This document shows, one piece after another, positions 25-10,796 of a stretch of DNA of 64,000 nt (position 1 is the first letter of the stretch; each line of letters opens with the position of its first letter). This DNA comes from Alphaproteobacteria bacterium (lineage in GTDB: Bacteria; Pseudomonadota; Alphaproteobacteria; Rs-D84; CASDRH01). Both the position numbers and the translations under genes were made by a program. Under the pieces are notes generated by a model. The model ran no database searches and was not told the DNA's origin. It was given only the letters and a program-made list of their open reading frames with translations. The stretch lies in NCBI GenBank assembly GCA_025210155.1, contig JAOASE010000004.1:1-64000 (forward strand), given 5' to 3'.

Positions 25-101
25 CGGGAAGTCGCTCAGTCTGGTAGAGTACTACGTTTGGGACGTAGGTGTCGCAGGTTCAAATCCTGTCTTCCCGACC
101 A
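25..101 (+). tRNA. tRNA-Pro (UGG)
   Basis: A full cloverleaf is visible. The acceptor strand CGGGAAG pairs with CTTCCCG. The anticodon stem CTACG/CGTAG encloses loop TTTGGGA with anticodon TGG. The T-loop is GTTCAAATC, and CCA is encoded at 99-101. The 3' end from base 85 doubles as the left attachment repeat of the adjoining element. The end of the recombinase frame lies antisense inside the T-arm and acceptor. Confidence 0.97.
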
Positions 102-1588
102 TTTGAAAAAGATTCATAATCCTTCAGTTCGTTGAAGGGTTTTTTTATGGAAAAACAAAGACTTCCGTGTTCTAAATGCAAGTTCCAAAGTAAATAATTG
201 ATAATAGCCCTTTTTTTAGGCACTTCGGAACTATTAAATAAGCTATAAGCCTTAGACATTAGCAAAACTAAGCCTTCTAGTGTCTTTTTAGACTCATCAT
301 CTGCACTAGTATAATCTTGTATTCTGTCTTCTATTTCATTCTTTCTAGTATTTAAAGCTAGTATCCTTTTGTCTAGCATATCTGTTGTAATACTATTAGT
401 TTCAGAAAATGCATCAAGTAGCTTTGATATTTTTCCATCTATAGAATGATATTCTTTGCTTAAGGTATTTATAGCTTGTTTTGAAAATTCTTCTTGCTTG
501 TTTTGAAATTGATTAAGGCTTTCTATTATTCCATCTAATACATCTTGGGGCATTTGAAATGATTTAAATAAATCGTTTATTTGCTCTAAGAACACCTCTT
601 CTCTAATAGGCTTTTGAATACAATTTCCTTTAGCGTGAGAACAAGTTAAATATATATATGTTTTACCGCTTGGCTTAACTTTCTTAATAGGAGTAAGTAA
701 ACAACCACAAGAACACCTTACAAGCCCTTTAAATGGGCTAAATTCTTCTTTGACCTTCTTATTATCTATCTTTCCTTTATATGTGCCTTGCTTATCTAAA
801 ACTTGCTGGCACTTATCGAATAAAGCTTTTGAAATTATAGCTCCGTGAATATGAGAATATAGCTCGCCTTTAACTTTCATAACTCCATAATAAAAAGGAT
901 TCTTTATCATAGTATGAAGTTGAGATTTTGAAATATCTTTATTATTAGAAGTTTTTAAACCTAGCTCTTTTGTTATTGGCTTAAGCTCTTCTAGTGAATA
1001 AAGTCCTTTTGAATATTCTTCAAATAGCTTTCTTATAATAAAGGCTTTGTTTTCATCTATAACTACAATAGCTTTGTTGTTATCGTCTCGTTTGTTAAGA
1101 TAACCTATAGGAGCTTTTGATAACCAAACCCCCTGCTCTCTAAGATACTTTCCTGACCTTTTAACATTTTCAGACAATTGAGCTACATAAGATTCTGATA
1201 TCATTGTTTGAAAATTCCAAATCATAAAATCATTAGCAGTAGATTCTTTATCTATAATTTTGTTTTCTCTTATAAAATGAAGCTCTATATCGCCTTTTTG
1301 AATTGGCTCTTTAAGTAAAACTGTTTCTTTAAAACTTCGTTGAAGCCTATCAACTGTATTAACTAATATAGCAATAGGTTTTTCTTTTTGAGATAAAGCA
1401 AAATCAAGCATTTCATTGAATTCTTTTCTTTCGCCTTTTGTTGAACTTTCAGTAATTTCATATTCTTTGACAACATTCAATGCTTTCTTAGTTGCATATT
1501 TCCTAAGAGTATCTAATTGAGCTTCAATAGAAGCCCCTTCCTCTTGTTCTTTAGAACTCACTCTTGTAAATATTACAGCCTTTTTCAT
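80..1588 (-). CDS. Large serine recombinase (integrase of the element)
   Basis: This 502-residue protein has an N-terminal resolvase domain with the catalytic serine in R9-V-S11, followed by VDRLQRS, the usual DRL-R motif of the active site. A recombinase domain follows, then a zinc ribbon at about residues 290-325 (CSCGC, then TCSHAKGNC) and a coiled-coil-rich C-terminus. This is the large serine recombinase architecture that catalyses integration and excision. The frame ends seven codons into the tRNA-Pro 3' end (last residues NGREDRI, TGA stop at 80-82), so its C-terminus is set by the integration junction. In a circular form the frame would run on (see 7221-7319). Start: ATG at 1588, with no other gene upstream in this direction until the endonuclease at 1612. 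Confidence 0.92.
   Translation of the reverse strand: MKKAVIFTRVSSKEQEEGASIEAQLDTLRKYATKKALNVVKEYEITESSTKGERKEFNEMLDFALSQKEKPIAILVNTVDRLQRSFKETVLLKEPIQKGDIELHFIRENKIIDKESTANDFMIWNFQTMISESYVAQLSENVKRSGKYLREQGVWLSKAPIGYLNKRDDNNKAIVVIDENKAFIIRKLFEEYSKGLYSLEELKPITKELGLKTSNNKDISKSQLHTMIKNPFYYGVMKVKGELYSHIHGAIISKALFDKCQQVLDKQGTYKGKIDNKKVKEEFSPFKGLVRCSCGCLLTPIKKVKPSGKTYIYLTCSHAKGNCIQKPIREEVFLEQINDLFKSFQMPQDVLDGIIESLNQFQNKQEEFSKQAINTLSKEYHSIDGKISKLLDAFSETNSITTDMLDKRILALNTRKNEIEDRIQDYTSADDESKKTLEGLVLLMSKAYSLFNSSEVPKKRAIINYLLWNLHLEHGSLCFSIKKPFNELKDYESFSNGREDRI
85..103. repeat. Left attachment repeat (attL core)
   Basis: TCCTGTCTTCCCGACCATT, the 3' end of tRNA-Pro plus two bases. It matches the copy at 7301-7319 in 18 of 19 positions. 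The single difference (T here, C there) is base 9. This copy keeps the base needed to pair in the tRNA acceptor stem. Confidence 0.85.
121..146 (+). terminator. Intrinsic terminator supplied by the element behind tRNA-Pro
   Basis: Stem CCTTCAG/TTGAAGG with a TTCG tetraloop is followed by G and seven T. It lies inside the element (and inside the recombinase coding sequence on the other strand), 20 bases after the tRNA. It therefore replaces the chromosomal terminator that the insertion moved to 7333-7363. Confidence 0.8.
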
Positions 1589-1611
1589 TCTATTGCCTTA
1601 ATTTAACTTTA

Positions 1612-2247
1612 TTAAATTGTTTTAGATTGAGCAATATCTATTAACATATTTTTTAAATCAATACCTGTTTCATTTTTAATAAATTCCCAAGCATCATCTC
1701 CAAAATAATATTTACCACCTAAACCAGTATATATCGTTTTTATTGTATCTTGAATTTTTATTGCTTGAGATCTGTTTGGATAAAAAAACATAATCCTAAT
1801 AGGAATATAACCATGAGACTTAATACACTTAGCCCTAGTATGTTCTTTTGTAATATGATCTCCATCAGTCGTAGCATCTCTCCACTTAATTTCATACGCA
1901 TGATTATCTACAAGACAATCTATTTCAAATTTTTTTGGTCTATTCCCTTGATTATTTTCTACCTTTTCTTTTTCTTTGGCATCTCTGAACTTTTCTTTAA
2001 AACACTCTATTGTTATGTCTTCTAGGAAACTTCCTGCATATTTGTATAAAAACCTTCCTTTATTTTGATATAAATCAATTTTATACCCTTCTTCTTCAGA
2101 AATTCCTAAAACTTGATAAATTAAATAATGATCTAAATTATCATTTTTCATTTCCTCTTCTCTGTTATGCATTTTTTCTTTTAGCTTATCACTATAAGAT
2201 TGCGATATAGATATTATCTTTTCTCTAAAATTATTCATTATTTTCAA
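1612..2247 (-). CDS. ApaLI-like type II restriction endonuclease
   Basis: This 211-residue protein carries a PD-(D/E)xK nuclease signature: D110, then E119-I-K121 within the segment around EIKWRDATTDGDHI. From memory this segment resembles the ApaLI restriction enzyme family, whose prototype cuts GTGCAC; the specificity here is inference only. The gene overlaps the end of the methyltransferase gene by 17 bases, so it is translated after it. That arrangement fits a restriction-modification pair in which methylation comes first. It would protect the element's host from foreign DNA and stabilise the element by post-segregational killing. Confidence 0.75.
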   Translation of the reverse strand: MKIMNNFREKIISISQSYSDKLKEKMHNREEEMKNDNLDHYLIYQVLGISEEEGYKIDLYQNKGRFLYKYAGSFLEDITIECFKEKFRDAKEKEKVENNQGNRPKKFEIDCLVDNHAYEIKWRDATTDGDHITKEHTRAKCIKSHGYIPIRIMFFYPNRSQAIKIQDTIKTIYTGLGGKYYFGDDAWEFIKNETGIDLKNMLIDIAQSKTI

Positions 2248-3334
2248 CCTCTCCTATTATTACTATAGCCTTTCTATCTATTTTTTTCTTCTCTGTTGAT
2301 TGTTCTAATTTCTTAAAAGACTTTTCGAAACTTTCTCCATCATCTTTTATTTTAATCGCAATCAAACCATCTTCTGAGTTTAAAAAACCATCAATACCTG
2401 AATTCCTATGAACTATATGTCCTGATAAATTACTTATTATATTTCTTTTATTTATATTATTATCTTCTTTAAATTCAAAAGAATTTTGTTTATTATTAGA
2501 AGCCTTACATAGCTGACTTTCTGTTTTTATAGGGTTTTTTAACCTCTTATCAGATAAATCAATTGCATCTTGAGACATATCTATCCCTATATAATTTCTG
2601 TTTAATATTTTAGATGCTACCAAAGTAGTTCCACTCCCACAGAATGGATCAAGAATAACATCTCCTTCTTCAGAGCATAACTCTATTATTTTTTCTAATA
2701 AATGGATAGGCTTCTGAGTTGGATAATTAACTCTTTCTTTGGCTTTTGGGTTAAGAAATGGAATATCCCAAACATCTCCTAAAGGGACTCCATTTTTCTT
2801 TTTTGCTATTTCCTCCGAATATATAACTTTATTATCCTTATCTCTCATTCTATTATTTAATATTTGATCAACATTTGTAGTTTCTGAATATCCCTTATAT
2901 TGCTTAAAGAATTTGTATTTATTTGTTTTTGAATAAAAGAATATTGTTTGATGATTATTTATTAGTCCTTTTTTTGAATTTGACCATTTCTTGTAATTCC
3001 ATATTATTTCATTCCTAAAATTATTATATCCAAATATATTATCTAATAATACTTTTATATAGTGAGAAGCATTATTATCACAATGAATAAATATACTACC
3101 TGTATCTTTTAATATATCTTTCATCTTTTTAATTCTAATTTCTAAAAAATCAATATATTCTGATATGTCCTCCCAAGAATCATTGAACTTATACTCAATA
3201 TTATCTCTTTTAACCTTGTATTCTTTTTGAGAAAAAAATGGTGGATCTAAATAAATTAGATCTATAGAATTTTTTTCAATCTTATCCATAATATTAAAAC
3301 AATCTCCTAGAAATAATTTATTAACATTTTTCAA
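2231..3334 (-). CDS. DNA methyltransferase of the R-M system (beta class)
   Basis: Motif IV DPPF is at residues 30-33 and the SAM-binding motif I, DPFCGSGTT, follows at about 229-237. This IV-before-I order defines the beta class, with the target-recognition region between them. DPPF suggests N6-adenine or N4-cytosine methylation. At 367 residues it has a C-terminal extension of about 100 residues after motif I, containing a second small alpha/beta-looking segment (IAIKIKDDGESFEKSF). Its 3' end overlaps the endonuclease start, and it begins two bases after the putative replication gene upstream. Confidence 0.88.
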   Translation of the reverse strand: MKNVNKLFLGDCFNIMDKIEKNSIDLIYLDPPFFSQKEYKVKRDNIEYKFNDSWEDISEYIDFLEIRIKKMKDILKDTGSIFIHCDNNASHYIKVLLDNIFGYNNFRNEIIWNYKKWSNSKKGLINNHQTIFFYSKTNKYKFFKQYKGYSETTNVDQILNNRMRDKDNKVIYSEEIAKKKNGVPLGDVWDIPFLNPKAKERVNYPTQKPIHLLEKIIELCSEEGDVILDPFCGSGTTLVASKILNRNYIGIDMSQDAIDLSDKRLKNPIKTESQLCKASNNKQNSFEFKEDNNINKRNIISNLSGHIVHRNSGIDGFLNSEDGLIAIKIKDDGESFEKSFKKLEQSTEKKKIDRKAIVIIGEVENNE

Positions 3335-3336
3335 CT

Positions 3337-4464
3337 TTACAACCTTTCCTTATAATTATCTAATTTTAGTGAATTCATACTTTGAATTTTTGATTTTACA
3401 TCCTTGAAAGTATTATATAGATAATTGTTCTTGAAATCAATCTTTTCTATATCTTTTTTTATTCTGTTATAAGTCTTATCTAAGCCCTTGTAATTCCTTA
3501 TCCCTTCCTCTTTTATCAAGCTTAAAGCTCCTAAACATTTAATAGCTTTACTATGATTTAAACCGTGATTTAGAAGCTTTTGATATAAAACCTTACTTTC
3601 ATCTTCTGCTAATACTACCACCGCAAGAGATGGATTTATATATTTATCCCAAAAATTAGTTAAAATCCTTTTTGCTATTACCTTATTAAAAAGCTGATTT
3701 ATCTGTATAGATTGTGGATTTAAGCCATTATCTCTTAAAGCTTTCCGTATAAGGGTTTTATTATTAAGCCTTACTTCAATTCTCAGCACTTGTAAACAAT
3801 CTAATTGTGATTTAGAGAATAAGTCTCTTTGAGGATAGTTATCGCCTTCTAAAGCCTTTTTATCGCTTATTTTAGATTGTTGCAAATCCTTAACCTTATC
3901 GTAGAAAGTTAATTCATAGCTATTTGTTCTGAACTTTATACTATGCCCTTCATTTCTAAAGTCTGTTTGGTTGCTATCAAGTTTTTTAGATATATCCATT
4001 TTAGCTATTGATTTTGTTATTAGACTCACAGGACAATTATCAAGTATTATGTTTTTTCCAAAGTGAATAGCTACAAGGTCGGAAGTTTTTAAAGCTTCTT
4101 TTGTAGTTTCTACATACATAGATTTTAAAGCCTTATGAAGTTTATCTATCACTTCTTTAAAGTCTGTATTTTCTAGCTCGTCGAAGTTATTTCCATATAA
4201 CAACTTAGGAGCTGAGAATTGTACCTTTAAACCTATATTATAACCTTTACCGTCTTTCATAAGTTTCTTTGAAAGAGTTAATTGAGGCTTATATATACCT
4301 TCTTTCTTATCTCTAGCACTAGCATTTTGATAACATTCATAATGACCTTGTGAAAGTTTATAGTAAGGATATTCAAATATTCCTCTTGCCGATGGATTGA
4401 AAGCTTCGTATTCTGTTATTTTGAAATCTGTTTCTTTCAGAAATATTGTTATTGTATCTATCAT
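3337..4464 (-). CDS. Putative replication initiation protein
   Basis: This 375-residue protein resembles phage/plasmid replication proteins of the gene II/X (CRI) type in its general layout. The N-terminus begins MIDTITIFL, the middle holds short beta segments, and an LRIEVRLN motif near residue 225 is followed by a helical, basic C-terminus. I could not identify a definite HUH or tyrosine active site by eye, so the family is a suggestion. Its start overlaps the stop of the SpoVG-like gene by one base (ATGA-type junction), so the two are co-translated. A replication role would fit an integrative plasmid-like element. Confidence 0.45.
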   Translation of the reverse strand: MIDTITIFLKETDFKITEYEAFNPSARGIFEYPYYKLSQGHYECYQNASARDKKEGIYKPQLTLSKKLMKDGKGYNIGLKVQFSAPKLLYGNNFDELENTDFKEVIDKLHKALKSMYVETTKEALKTSDLVAIHFGKNIILDNCPVSLITKSIAKMDISKKLDSNQTDFRNEGHSIKFRTNSYELTFYDKVKDLQQSKISDKKALEGDNYPQRDLFSKSQLDCLQVLRIEVRLNNKTLIRKALRDNGLNPQSIQINQLFNKVIAKRILTNFWDKYINPSLAVVVLAEDESKVLYQKLLNHGLNHSKAIKCLGALSLIKEEGIRNYKGLDKTYNRIKKDIEKIDFKNNYLYNTFKDVKSKIQSMNSLKLDNYKERL

Positions 4465-4706
4465 TATCTTGATTCCTTTAGTTTGTTAAATATTGTTGTT
4501 TCTATTATTGAGCTTGTTTCTCTGTTTATAGGGTATAAAATGCTATGATTTTGTTTTTGTGGGTATGTTATCCTATAACCACCGCTAAGCTTTTTATGAA
4601 TTCCTATTGATGAGATATACAGGCTGTTATCTATTATTAGATTTGCAAAGCCTATAAGTCCGCTTCTTTCAGTTATGAAATCTATATTACACTCTGTTAT
4701 TTTCAT
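4464..4706 (-). CDS. SpoVG family protein
   Basis: This 80-residue protein matches the SpoVG fold pattern from memory: an N-terminal strand, a short repeat of hydrophobic strands (GFANLIIDNSLYISSIGIH), then a YRITYPQK segment and YPIN before a C-terminal helix. SpoVG proteins are small nucleic-acid-binding regulators in Firmicutes and are also carried by mobile elements. It sits between a 58-codon gene (overlapping its start) and the putative replication gene, so a regulatory role in element copy control is possible. Confidence 0.7.
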   Translation of the reverse strand: MKITECNIDFITERSGLIGFANLIIDNSLYISSIGIHKKLSGGYRITYPQKQNHSILYPINRETSSIIETTIFNKLKESR

Positions 4707-4863
4707 TACCTTGCTCCTTCTTTAGTTGTTTTTGTCTTTCATCTTCTTCATATAGCAATAGAATAACACCCATCAAATTATCACAAGCTCCTTGAAGCTC
4801 TTCATTTGATAGTTGGTTATCGTAAAGCCTGCCTATTGCAGTATGTAAAGATTCGTTTGCCAT
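4687..4863 (-). CDS. Small hypothetical protein, 58 residues
   Basis: The frame reads from ATG at 4863 to TAA at 4687: MANESLHTAIGRLY, then a Leu-rich helix (NLMGVILLLYEEDERQ) and a polar Lys/Glu tail. It overlaps the start of the SpoVG-like gene by 20 bases, which suggests translational coupling. The composition looks coding and helical. I do not recognise the family; a small regulatory protein of the element would fit. Confidence 0.6.
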   Translation of the reverse strand: MANESLHTAIGRLYDNQLSNEELQGACDNLMGVILLLYEEDERQKQLKKEQGNENNRV

Positions 4864-4890
4864 ATCTAAAATATATGACTTTAAAATTAA

Positions 4891-4940
4891 AATTCCCTAG
4901 GAATAGCAAGGGATAGCTGAAGAATAGCAGTTGCTTGAGA
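4891..4940. other. Short hairpin and reiterated boxes in the element's control region
   Basis: The gap between the two minus-strand gene groups holds TCCCT (4894-4898) facing AGGGA (4909-4913), and three related boxes AATAGCA, GATAGCT and AATAGCA within 35 bases. It is the only sizeable non-coding space in the leftward gene set. A promoter/operator or a replication origin are both possible; the sequence alone does not decide. Confidence 0.3.
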
Positions 4941-4975
4941 ATTTAAAAGCAGATTGTTTGGATATTTAAAAGCGT

Positions 4976-5983
4976 TTACTGTATAGATAAAACATCTTCT
5001 TCAATATCTTGTTGATTAAACGTGTTTTTAAATACAATGCTGTTAGACTGCAATGTCGGGAATAATATTTTCATAAGAGCTGTATTTTTATTGAAGATGT
5101 TTCTTATAACTTGGTCTAATCTATCTAATTTTGTAAAGCTTACATCTTCTCTAGAAATCTTTTTATTGGGGTTTTCAAATACATATTCAAAAACCTCTCT
5201 TTGTTTTCCTTCATTAAGCTTTTTGATTCTGCTTTCAATTACTCCATCTGAAAGAAAGATAGTATTATTTTTATATAAGATATTATATGTTTTAATAACT
5301 TCTATCTCTTTTGAATTTTCTTCTATATTTTCAATTCCTTTGCAAAACTGATTATAAAAATCATCAAAATCTTGTTTTAGAAGAATTACTAATTTATCGA
5401 TTTTAACCACCTCCAATAACATTGGGGTATTATTTATTTCAAGATTTTCATCAGAACTTATATCTTTTAAAACAATAATATCAAGGCTTTTTAACTTTAA
5501 TAAGAAATTAGCTATATTATCTGGAGATAGGTCTTTTTTAAAAACAAAATCTAAGCCTTTTAATTTAAAGGCTTCTCCTAAGTTTTTATCTCTTTCGTCT
5601 TTTAGGAAATTTAATATAGGCAAATATAAGCTTCTTATTTTAATACTGGAGTTTTCTATTAAATCATATCTTTTTAGAGAGCCTGTCTTTTTAAAGTGCT
5701 GAAAGTTAATATACTTTTTTATGATTTCCTTATATTTTAAATCGAAAAGACCTGTTTTTTTTATCTTGCAATAATATGAAGGATTAACAAACTTCCAATC
5801 CTGCTCTTTTTTTATCATAGAATAATCTGTTGCCATTTTATTTATTACAAGCTGAACATCTTGCTTTGGAACATCGCTCCAATAAGAGTTCCAGAAATCT
5901 ATAGTTGAGCCTTCTGGAGCAAGCTCAAATAATTCATTTACCTTATTTGCTATATGGTATATTTTTTCTTCTGAATTTAACAT
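4976..5983 (-). CDS. Hypothetical protein of the element, 335 residues
   Basis: I do not recognise this protein. It is Lys/Ile-rich and mixed alpha/beta, with no signal peptide or membrane segment. The segments around residues 1-60 (STIDFWNSYWSDVPKQDVQ) and 260-300 could be winged-helix-like, a weak impression only. A ribosome-binding site AAAGGTAG precedes the ATG. It is divergently transcribed from the RelA/SpoT-domain gene across a 134-base AT-rich region (5984-6117) that must hold both promoters. It could be a regulator or an auxiliary replication/defence protein. Confidence 0.7.
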   Translation of the reverse strand: MLNSEEKIYHIANKVNELFELAPEGSTIDFWNSYWSDVPKQDVQLVINKMATDYSMIKKEQDWKFVNPSYYCKIKKTGLFDLKYKEIIKKYINFQHFKKTGSLKRYDLIENSSIKIRSLYLPILNFLKDERDKNLGEAFKLKGLDFVFKKDLSPDNIANFLLKLKSLDIIVLKDISSDENLEINNTPMLLEVVKIDKLVILLKQDFDDFYNQFCKGIENIEENSKEIEVIKTYNILYKNNTIFLSDGVIESRIKKLNEGKQREVFEYVFENPNKKISREDVSFTKLDRLDQVIRNIFNKNTALMKILFPTLQSNSIVFKNTFNQQDIEEDVLSIQ

Positions 5984-6117
5984 CGAATTACTACCTTTCT
6001 TAAATTACAACTTTATAATAAACTTTAGAATACAAATAGAACAAATTCAAGAATAAAAGTTCTTGAAATAATTATACATTCTGATACCATTTTTAGAAAT
6101 TAAAAGGAAAAAAAATT

Positions 6118-7215
6118 ATGGATTACTCTAAATCAAAATTAGATAAGATAGCTTCTAAGATAAGACATAAAAAAGATTTAACAAAAGCAGAATCTTTAAT
6201 ATTTGAAGATTTTCGAAAAAATCATTCTAAAATACTAAATTCCTTTCAAACTTTAATAAGACGAAAATTAGATAGACCAAAGTGGAAAACTGTTATCTTT
6301 GCTCAAAGATTAAAAAAAAGAAATACTATTTTTGATAAAATATCACATAGACATAATGGAATGGATTTGTTAAGAATGAATGATATTGCAGGTTGTAGGT
6401 TAATATTCAATAACATTCAAGAATTAAACACTTTTAGACAAGTTATACTAGACACAAACAATAGAAGCTATAAAAGATGTAATGAGTTAGATAAATATGA
6501 TTATATTCAAAAGCCTAGAGATACTGGATATAGAGGAATCCATGATATTTATGAAGAAATAACAGAAAATAACATAAAGCTTAAAATTGAAATACAATAT
6601 AGGACTAAAGTTCAACATTACTGGGCTACCGCTTGTGAGATTTGGGATTCAAATTTTAATAAAAGAAGTAAATTTGGAGAAGGAAATAAAGGAGAAAAGC
6701 TTTTCTTTAAATTGATTTCAGATTTTCTAAACTATTCCTTTGATGAAGAAGATTACTGCCCTAAAAAAAATCTAAGGATATTTAAAAGAATTGTAAAATT
6801 AAAAAAATCTATAACATATTTGACACGTTTAAGAACTATTGAGAAAATTAAGATTGATAAAAAAATTAAAAAAAATATATTATTTAATAATTTCTTACTA
6901 GATAAATGGTCTTTAGATTTAAAAATAGAACAAATAAAACAACAAAAATTTAATGACAAATCTATAAACACATATAATGATTTAGAAAAATCTTCCGAAT
7001 ATAGCGATATAGTTTTAGTTATGACCGAGGGAAAAGACCTTAATAGAGCTTACAATAACTATTTTAATGATATAAATTCCTTTTTGAAAAAAATAAATAC
7101 TGCCCTATTAAAAATAAAGAATGAATATCCTGTTAGATTTTTTATCTACTCTTTAATATTTTGTAATTTACTAGAGAGAGATGACTTGAAAAATTTAAAA
7201 AGGGGAAAGTTCTAA
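6118..7215 (+). CDS. RelA/SpoT-domain (alarmone synthetase-like) protein
   Basis: The RelA/SpoT nucleotidyltransferase core spans about residues 55-185. It contains DIAGCR (89-94), KPRDTGYRGIH (132-142) and the catalytic-type EIQYRT (158-163) followed by H167 and WA. No HD hydrolase, TGS or ACT domain is present. The remaining roughly 180 C-terminal residues are Lys-rich, helical and unrecognised. Short single-domain synthetases can make (p)ppGpp-like messengers or modify tRNA as toxins (toxSAS, CapRel). No separate antitoxin gene is adjacent, so the C-terminal half may be regulatory. This is the only plus-strand gene of the element and lies at its edge, a common place for defence cargo. RBS-like AAAAGGA precedes the ATG. 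Confidence 0.85.
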   Translation: MDYSKSKLDKIASKIRHKKDLTKAESLIFEDFRKNHSKILNSFQTLIRRKLDRPKWKTVIFAQRLKKRNTIFDKISHRHNGMDLLRMNDIAGCRLIFNNIQELNTFRQVILDTNNRSYKRCNELDKYDYIQKPRDTGYRGIHDIYEEITENNIKLKIEIQYRTKVQHYWATACEIWDSNFNKRSKFGEGNKGEKLFFKLISDFLNYSFDEEDYCPKKNLRIFKRIVKLKKSITYLTRLRTIEKIKIDKKIKKNILFNNFLLDKWSLDLKIEQIKQQKFNDKSINTYNDLEKSSEYSDIVLVMTEGKDLNRAYNNYFNDINSFLKKINTALLKIKNEYPVRFFIYSLIFCNLLERDDLKNLKRGKF

Positions 7216-7220
7216 ACCAC

Positions 7221-7319
7221 CTAAAGATTTAGAAGTTCGTTTAATTGTGAAACATCGAATTCTTTTAGATATAATGTGTCTTGTAGGAGTTCCAAAACTG
7301 TCCTGTCTCCCCGACCATT
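7221..7319 (-). other. Displaced 3' coding tail of the recombinase (P arm of attP)
   Basis: Reading the minus strand from the right repeat gives 32 sense codons in the recombinase frame. They start NGRGDRTVLELLQ, continue with LYLKEFDVSQLNELLNL and end at TAG (7221-7223), five bases past the stop of the RelA/SpoT gene. In the integrated state this segment has no start codon of its own. In a circular element it would be joined in frame to codon 495 of the recombinase, giving a 527-residue protein in place of the 502-residue form. The prediction follows directly from aligning the two repeats without a gap; that the circle forms is inference. Confidence 0.6.
7301..7319. repeat. Right attachment repeat (attR core)
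   Basis: TCCTGTCTCCCCGACCATT, 18/19 identical to 85-103. If the base-9 difference is original, the crossover lies in the ten bases to its right (7310-7319), leaving the tRNA base intact on the left. Upstream of it only a weak tRNA T-arm-like resemblance is seen. Confidence 0.85.
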
Positions 7320-7327
7320 AAGTTTTA

Positions 7328-8503
7328 TTATATGTCATCCTCCACGGGATGGCACTTTTTTTTATTTAACTTTTTTTGAATTTCATCATTTAACTTTATA
7401 ATATCAAAGTTTATAACCTTTTCTTTTGAAATCTTAATATATTTGTCTACATTTTTTGATGTTATTAAATGCCTTCCTTCTTTTATAGAATTTATTTGGT
7501 AATTATTCATATCAATATTGTAATGAGATGTATCTTTATAATTTGATATATCATCTAAATAATCCATATCTTCAAAAGCGTAAAACTTTAAATTTTTATA
7601 CTTATCAGAAAGATTTGCCATATATCTCACTATTCCATAATGAATATTTGCTAAATTTTGGGATCTAATATATTTTGCAAACCTACCTCTAAAATATGGG
7701 GGCATTATTATATAAAAATTTGTATTTGGATATTTTTCTATATATTTTATCAAATATTTTTCTATATATTTTTTTGATGTTTCTAATTGATCTTTAAAAT
7801 TCTCATCAGGACTGTCAATTAAAATCTTTTTAGTTGAGGTCTCTTTTAAGTCGTTCATAGCTGCCATTATTCGCTTATAGCTTTTATATTCAACCCACTT
7901 ATCTACTCCACCGAACGTAGCAATATGTCTCTTATGAGAAAACCAATTATAAGGATAATTAAGAGATAACTGCTTTTCATTCTTTAATTTAAAACCTGAA
8001 AATAATATATTTTTTAATATATACTTATCGTTAAAATATATTTTAAAATCATTGAACTTGTTGTCATCATATAAATATGAATAATTTGATGTATTACTTA
8101 TATCACTGTCTATGAAACACCCATCAAAAGAATATACAATAGATTTTAAATTTTTCTTCTTTTTAAAAAGGTAATCTAATACGACAGCTCTTTCATCAAA
8201 TGAACCTCCACTCATTGATATATTTGCAAATGTTCCCCCTAATTTTTTACTTACAAAATCTGCTGAGGTATTTTGTATCATAGATGTGCCAAAAATAATT
8301 GAGTCAAATTTCTCTGACATTGAATTTATAACTCCGGCATTTTGAGTTCTGGCATCTTCATATAAAACCACATCTCTATTAAAAAATGGTTTATGAAAAA
8401 TCATTAGAGGATCATTTATATATGAAATAATTATATATAAATATATTGGAGCTATGATAGTAAATAAAAATATTTTACTGTATTTTTTATAATTTTTTTC
8501 CAC
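7328..8503 (-). CDS. SGNH-like/DltD-like membrane-anchored protein, partner of the MBOAT acyltransferase
   Basis: The 391-residue protein has one N-terminal membrane segment (about residues 10-29) and an extracytoplasmic domain. IIFGTSM near residue 68 matches the GDS/GTS serine block of SGNH hydrolases, and NISMSGGSFDERA gives the following Gly-containing block. A possible catalytic D-x-x-H is DTSHYN in the C-terminal third. Such proteins act with AlgI-type MBOAT proteins to O-acetylate polysaccharides or cell-wall glycans. The MBOAT gene lies 15 bases upstream in the same direction, so the two form an operon. The substrate cannot be told from sequence. Confidence 0.75.
   Translation of the reverse strand: MEKNYKKYSKIFLFTIIAPIYLYIIISYINDPLMIFHKPFFNRDVVLYEDARTQNAGVINSMSEKFDSIIFGTSMIQNTSADFVSKKLGGTFANISMSGGSFDERAVVLDYLFKKKKNLKSIVYSFDGCFIDSDISNTSNYSYLYDDNKFNDFKIYFNDKYILKNILFSGFKLKNEKQLSLNYPYNWFSHKRHIATFGGVDKWVEYKSYKRIMAAMNDLKETSTKKILIDSPDENFKDQLETSKKYIEKYLIKYIEKYPNTNFYIIMPPYFRGRFAKYIRSQNLANIHYGIVRYMANLSDKYKNLKFYAFEDMDYLDDISNYKDTSHYNIDMNNYQINSIKEGRHLITSKNVDKYIKISKEKVINFDIIKLNDEIQKKLNKKKCHPVEDDI
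7333..7363 (+). terminator. Original terminator of tRNA-Pro, displaced by the element
   Basis: Stem TGTCATCC/GGATGGCA (one G-T pair) with loop TCCACG is followed by eight T. Only the remnant of the attachment site precedes it on the plus strand. Excision would bring it to about 30 bases behind the tRNA. It overlaps the last codons of the minus-strand gene ending at 7328. Confidence 0.75.
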
Positions 8504-10382: not shown

Positions 10383-10796
10383 ATGAATGAAAATGCAATT
10401 AAAGACCTACTTAAGAATATTGGCTTAAAAATAACTGAAAATAGAATCATAATATCTAAGATAATATTAGATTCTTTTGACCATATGACCGTAGAACAAG
10501 TATTACTTAAGGCGAAGAAAATAAATCCTAGTATTGGCCTGGCGACCGTATATAGAACTTTAAATTCTTTAGAGAAAGAGTCTCTTATAAAAAAACATAT
10601 TTTTGCAAAAAATATCATAGCTTATGAAAATATACTGGAAAAACATAGGCATGATCATTTAATAGATATAGATAACAAAAATGTTATTGAATTTACCAAT
10701 GGTAAATTAGAAAAATTACTTAATGATATAGCTAAAAATAATGGATATGAATTGCTATATCATGACCTGAAACTTTATGGGAAAAAACGTAGTTAG
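10383..10796 (+). CDS. fur: Fur family ferric uptake regulator
   Basis: At 137 residues it has normal Fur size. The N-terminal winged helix (residues 1-80) includes IGLATVYRTLNSLEKESLI, the Fur recognition-helix block. The dimerisation domain begins with the metal-binding KHRHDHLI cluster. The CxxC structural zinc motif near the C-terminus is absent, as in many alphaproteobacterial Fur proteins. A Fur box lies about 40 bases upstream, which suggests autoregulation. The flavodoxin gene follows 66 bases later on the same strand. Confidence 0.9.
   Translation: MNENAIKDLLKNIGLKITENRIIISKIILDSFDHMTVEQVLLKAKKINPSIGLATVYRTLNSLEKESLIKKHIFAKNIIAYENILEKHRHDHLIDIDNKNVIEFTNGKLEKLLNDIAKNNGYELLYHDLKLYGKKRS

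Follow-up and report, generated by a model that had tools for sequence, protein, structure and literature searches.

What becomes of a recombinase when the site at which it integrates lies inside its own gene? The question is raised by a small integrative element at about positions 104-7319 of contig JAOASE010000004.1 of an Alphaproteobacteria bacterium (assembly GCA_025210155.1); the first 64,000 nucleotides (nt) of this contig were analysed and are here called the window. At one end of the element the gene of a large serine recombinase (LSR) runs into tRNA-Pro. In the reading that we consider likely, the element belongs to an LSR family that targets tRNA 3' ends, in which the attachment site of the free element (attP) would overlap the last codons of the recombinase and the C-terminus would be exchanged on integration. 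Comparison with relatives shows, at the level of sequence, that attP lies inside the gene, that C-termini are exchanged between free and integrated relatives, that tails are conserved and that a motif keeps its spacing.

The recombinase gene and its attachment site

The integrated gene (coordinates of all features are given in Table 1) enters the 3' end of tRNA-Pro and stops at TGA 80-82. This end, proposed earlier in a sequence-only reading together with the length of 502 residues, was obtained again when derived anew. Three Pfam domains are found above cut-off: an N-terminal Resolvase domain with the catalytic serine (7e-22), a Recombinase domain (6.7e-14) and a zinc ribbon (Zn_ribbon_recom, 4.1e-7). 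Together, in a protein of this size, they identify a large serine recombinase. The protein further matches PHROG 95, integrase, at 7.8e-73, and in an alignment of relatives the R-x-S motif and other residues of the catalytic domain are invariant.

Two attachment repeats flank the element. Their sole mismatch is T at 93 versus C at 7309. Within the tRNA this position faces A29 of the acceptor stem, with which T forms a pair and C would not. The crossover should therefore lie to the right of 93, in the run CCCGACCATT (94-103 / 7310-7319). This core is unique to the two repeats across the 1.03-Mb genome. When the ends are joined without a gap (7319|104) the frame stays open and gives a 527-residue composite that ends in ...NGRGDRTVLELLQDTLYLKEFDVSQLNELLNL, with TAG at 7221-7223, five bases past the RelA/SpoT stop (7213-7215). 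The 25 new codons and their stop are thus as the sequence-only reading had described them. Its central claim, an attachment site within the LSR gene and a C-terminus that would change on the predicted excision, is confirmed by the in-frame composite, and the exchange is seen between relatives. However, integration does not simply trim the protein, as had been suggested: the integrated and composite forms diverge from residue 499 onward, which amounts to replacement and extension, and family-wide the tail is swapped for tRNA-antisense codons.

Openness of the frame alone is weak evidence, because 25 open codons are found by chance in 27% of window stretches and in 13% of far-arm shuffles. Better support comes from the far arm, where a putative recognition motif (GGAAC) has exactly the spacing of a free site.

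Genomes of the same order yielded about 50 related LSRs, with 30-45% identity. Nearly all of them, about 45, terminate inside the 3' ends of tRNA genes of many isoacceptors (Gln, Glu, Asn, Pro, Arg, His, Leu, Lys, Tyr and Gly). In 42 of 47 related LSR genes the reading frame contains TGG, the complement of CCA, as a codon, and its distance from K-P-F-x, the last conserved motif, is exactly 30 nt in nearly all cases; the few odd spacings look like artefacts of the motif search. As a consequence of this spacing, the integrated C-termini read W.G..DSN, which is the antisense of the acceptor and the T-arm. An identical geometry of LSR and tRNA is found in Legionella and Neochlamydia plasmids. On the plasmid of Legionella adelaidensis an intact recombinase is located at tRNA-Asn, and about 11 kb away (L101 about 3935-4140; such labels are our own handles) a 36-residue remnant of a second LSR is fused in frame to a tail.

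Partial tRNA copies beside four recombinases (L033, L035, L037 and L074) were considered as free sites and rejected. In G005 a tyrosine-integrase island separates the intact tRNA-Asn from the partial copy. In G141 there is an intact tRNA-Gln some 5 kb upstream. The copies at L033 and L037, which have no intact tRNA nearby, would be explained in the same way. The island in G005 (L109 9081-19851, with L035) is inserted in that very tRNA-Asn, in front of the LSR element, and carries a type III-like restriction system.

The two kinds of arm differ in one spacing. CGA[AG]C begins 21 nt after TGG in free and far arms, while [CT]GAAC begins 16 nt after it in tRNA arms, a count that is partly circular as W...RT is part of the profile by which many tails were found. 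Forms detected independently of this profile (G137, L134, G057, five sites in G192, L125-L128 and L131) agree on the spacing. Seven arms score 14 by first match, on an earlier CGAAT, and their sequences hold CGAAC at 21. In the Listeria LI integrase the zinc-ribbon motif differs by 5 bp between attP and the host site, attB, so that the attP arm is the longer one (Rutherford 2013, PMC3783163). By the same rule the motif of the free sites is found exactly 5 bp farther out than the T-loop copy in the tRNA, and this includes the tail-side arm of the window (+21 versus +16). As the T-loop is nearly universal, such recognition would explain the use of many tRNAs. Further, the last LSR codons, AAAAAACCCTTCAACGAACTGAAGGAT, form an intrinsic terminator on the opposite strand, directly behind the tRNA, and a terminator overlaps the LSR codons in at least 20 of 49 relatives.

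Tails in free and integrated relatives

The contig G137:C4 is a circular phage, as indicated by a 99-bp terminal overlap; it is 41,304 bp long and has an endolysin gene. Here the LSR gene is uninterrupted: it crosses the attP core, GGGCGCGCCA, and goes on to encode a tail of 30 residues, WRALADDFRTLYADDVRKFAANWNWVVPLAA. In the viral contig L134 the gene is likewise uninterrupted, and the same tail is found with substitutions and no gaps (...WRALADDFRTLHYEKLRNLAANWNWALPMAA). In the integrated prophage of G057 the tail, WRTLVDDFRTKYALEIQKMQAANWDWCLPLAA, is stranded at the far end, 36 kb away, and comes in frame once the ends are joined. A second group of phages (L125-L128 and L131) has a different conserved tail, R.EI.AL...L..V....AA, which is lost in L132, a member of this group that is integrated in tRNA-Gln. 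The homology search for tailed free relatives that the sequence-only reading had proposed is therefore answered by a longer conserved tail in G137:C4 and L134, and by a stranded one in G057. Relatives outside tRNAs that end at the short form would have spoken against that reading; the free phage forms have tails instead.

A profile of the tails of G137, L134, G057 and the second group revealed in-frame far-end tails in G058, G055, G040, G162, G171, G092, G141, G149 and others. Beyond the core, most of these sites have a hairpin and then a T run, as a displaced tRNA terminator would show. A search by core identity had missed most far ends, since the core common to both ends may be no longer than CCA, and they were located by the tail profile and by a search for composite open reading frames. 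One candidate far site in G055 (oriented 10668-10682) was rejected because it lies inside a host gene. The replication protein of the window element is 42-43% identical to proteins beside the LSR in four genomes (G149, G141, G055 and G172), and the element therefore belongs to their group. The far-end tails of the sister elements in G149, G141 and G055 read W...[DE][FL]RT.YY.DI.

Tails are also found in cassettes that lack an LSR. Rows of them are present in G192, on contig 6 (L098 9580, 10394, 11018) and contig 1 (L077 4328, 4989, 6319). These cassettes are small single genes (acetyltransferase, CutA-like, methyltransferase), each bounded by core, terminator and in-frame tail. In G051 (L237 8268-14400, L032) tRNA-Asn is followed by two cassettes and then by a frame-shifted LSR, whose last codons are fused to a cassette tail. 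Cassettes that enter at the tRNA thereby provide the recombinase with a different tail.

The window copy and alternative readings

In the window the distance from K-P-F-x to TGG is 29 nt, a spacing shared with one phage (L123/L124), and the composite is therefore read one frame off the family; the family frame would need A6 at 106-110. The best match of the far end to the family tail over nine offsets has P 0.04 in the actual frame and 0.12 in the family frame. In the sister elements the frame used by the window composite hits an early stop. At the DNA level 23 of 30 positions of the arm match sister G149, versus only 17 of 60 beyond it. A swap of the C-terminus is also expected in this copy, and owing to the 1-nt offset excision is predicted to give the enzyme a tail other than that of the family. 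The earlier view that the long form is the original protein thus holds in part: free relatives do have a longer conserved tail, while the 25-residue tail of the window itself is not supported as original; LYLKEFDVSQLNELLNL, which had been taken for the original end, is one frame off the family.

It is possible, although we think it somewhat unlikely, that a recent frameshift, or a mistake in the assembly, has put A5 in the place of A6 and so produced the 29-nt spacing. In that case the integrated protein would in reality, or would ancestrally, end in KWSGRQDLNLRHLRPKRSTLPD, and the free tail would be the reading in the family frame. With A6 the gene would fit both the K-W ending of the relatives and their 30-nt spacing, and D.F.T is found at the family position in the family frame. 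However, the other genes of the element look intact, the phage L123/L124 has the same 29 nt, and beyond the arm the score of the tail in the family frame does not exceed chance.

That the tail is a by-product, with a far end conserved as a DNA recognition arm, open by chance, and a protein change without a role, we regard as improbable. The arm with its CGAAC motif does coincide with the first ten tail codons, open frames of 25 codons are not rare, as seen above, and cassettes without an LSR carry arm and tail too. However, past codon 12 the sequence changes in the manner of a coding region read in the LSR frame: the pooled ratio of non-synonymous to synonymous differences (pN/pS) from codon 13 on is 0.57, versus 1.25 and 1.70 in the other frames, and of 7 independent pairs, 6 have their lowest value in the LSR frame (binomial P about 0.007, with a chance of one third per frame). 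Frame shifts are compensated, as the tail of L131 remains in the LSR frame though, counted from TGG, L131 uses another frame than L125/L127. In addition, more than 20 tails are open for 24-51 codons. The pN/pS pattern and the frame of L131 indicate coding conservation and not conservation of the site alone. Judged by these comparisons, selection in the family acts on the tails as protein, and the tailed form would therefore do work.

Little credence is also given to the tail as a degradation tag, removed from an unstable free enzyme on integration as in the repressors of mycobacteriophage BPs (PMC4557955, PMC9934374): all phage tails here do end in -AA (PLAA, PMAA, HLAA, AIAA, KVAA), like ssrA-type tags, but tails of non-phage elements and cassettes end in SIRI, RPAL, KEIL and LIPR, and that of the window in LNL. 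As -AA endings are confined to phage tails, a universal degron reading was dropped.

Several points weigh against an exchange of functional C-termini as we propose it. The circle of the window element is a prediction from its joined ends, made from sequence only. Neither frame of its tail fits the family profile, and its far motif, GGAAC, has one mismatch to the CGAAC of the family. In an AlphaFold model of L134 the tail is a low-confidence helix (residues 483-506, predicted local distance difference test about 50). To these should be added the partial circularity of the spacing count and the fact that tail codons one to ten overlap the recognition arm.

We still favour the exchange, which may proceed as follows. 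In the free circle the enzyme would be made with the tail encoded by the element, as in the free phage relatives. It would recombine attP, which overlaps its own last codons, with a tRNA 3' end, at a crossover adjoining CCA. Going by the spacing, the zinc-ribbon domain would read TTCGAAC, the universal T-loop motif, in both sites, at a position that in attP is 5 bp farther out than in attB. Integration would rebuild the tRNA and place the last recombinase codons, doubling as terminator, right behind it; the tail would be stranded at the far end, and the new C-terminus read from the tRNA antisense. Most likely, the swap would set the activity or stability of the enzyme by the state of the element, free or integrated. 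A switch in activity or direction, as the sequence-only reading had it, is plausible.

Element content and related systems

Between its ends the element carries an ApaLI-like restriction-modification pair as cargo (1612-3334), among other genes (Table 1). No tyrosine integrase gene was found in 104-7319, among the open reading frames and by Pfam, and a search of viral contigs gave none related to the replication protein or to the RelA/SpoT protein. The contig starts 24 bases ahead of the tRNA, and several relatives likewise break near the recombinase, perhaps because integrated and empty states are mixed in the sample.

Table 1. Features of the window, in order of position.
Feature	Position	Strand	Remarks
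tRNA-Pro(TGG), attB gene	25..101	+	ARAGORN; intact after integration
T-loop motif TTTGAAC, tRNA arm	78..84	-	TGAAC 16 nt after TGG, attB spacing
LSR gene	80..1588	-	502 aa as integrated; Pfam and PHROG matches
Near attachment repeat	85..103	+	18/19 identical to 7301-7319; crossover predicted within 94-103
A5 run	106..110	+	1-nt difference (29 vs 30 nt) putting the gene one frame off the family
Intrinsic terminator for tRNA	118..148	+	Antisense of last LSR codons; 10-bp stem and T run
ApaLI-like restriction endonuclease, cargo	1612..2247	-	Pfam RE_ApaLI 1.5e-90
N6/N4 DNA methyltransferase, cargo	2231..3334	-	Pfam 1.1e-59
Replication protein	3337..4464	-	PHROG 702 4.4e-6; counterpart beside recombinase in sister elements
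SpoVG-like protein	4464..4706	-	Pfam SpoVG 2.1e-6, slightly under curated cut-off
Protein without family match	4976..5983	-	No Pfam, PHROG or NCBIfam match
RelA/SpoT-domain protein	6118..7215	+	Pfam RelA_SpoT 1e-14; PHROG 4773 5.1e-52; convergent with stranded tail
Stranded DNA in family frame	7195..7317	-	Translation WSGRQDSFGTPTRHIISKRIRCFTIKRTSKSLGGLELSPF; open, then stopped
Stranded tail	7221..7319	-	Frame the LSR would actually use; ends ...LNELLNL, TAG
TTTTGGAAC, far arm	7289..7297	-	GGAAC 21 nt after TGG, attP spacing
Far attachment repeat	7301..7319	+	Partner of near repeat
Original host tRNA terminator	7333..7362	+	Displaced to far side; 9-pair stem and T8, z -4.3

The recombinase has the same domains as known large serine integrases (A118/Listeria LI, phiC31 and TP901-1 type). 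In contrast to these, the family targets many tRNA 3' ends, attP lies in its own last codons and the C-terminus changes. In archaeal viruses of the spindle-shaped virus (SSV) type the attachment site is also found in the integrase gene and tRNA genes are used; however, the enzyme there is a tyrosine integrase, and integration splits the gene rather than exchanging a short tail. The islands of tyrosine integrases that target tRNAs differ as well, since here it is a serine recombinase that lies beside the tRNA. In BPs-type mycobacteriophages attP lies within the repressor gene, and integration alters the product by removing a C-terminal tail (PMC4557955, PMC9934374). This integration-dependent immunity resembles our case in having attP in a coding gene and a tail lost on integration, and in the -AA tails of the phage relatives. 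However, the gene here is the recombinase and not a repressor, and the tail is replaced by tRNA-antisense codons. No report of a serine recombinase with attP in the 3' end of its own gene was found in the open-access literature, in a search that was not exhaustive.

Some relatives resemble integrons in that small cassettes, each of a single gene, follow one another in rows and the attachment site is repeated. The differences are that the recombinase is a serine and not a tyrosine enzyme such as IntI, that the tRNA end is the docking site and that no folded site of the attC type is shown; nor does the window's genome hold extra copies of the core. Only tentatively, as we think it unlikely, might the whole be seen as a tRNA-docked cassette system, in which last codons, attachment site and tRNA terminator are one stretch of DNA and incoming tails set the activity of the resident enzyme. 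Phages, elements and cassettes without an LSR would then all supply tails, and the state of the array would decide activity. Serine-recombinase cassette arrays at tRNAs were not found reported in the open-access literature.

For the family, these observations explain how a single group of LSRs is able to enter many different tRNA genes, as what it appears to recognise is the universal T-loop together with the CCA end. Further, they describe an integrase whose own sequence would record its state of integration, something so far known from phage repressors. The swapped tails would also provide a ready test of C-terminal control in serine integrases, which are widely used tools for genome engineering.

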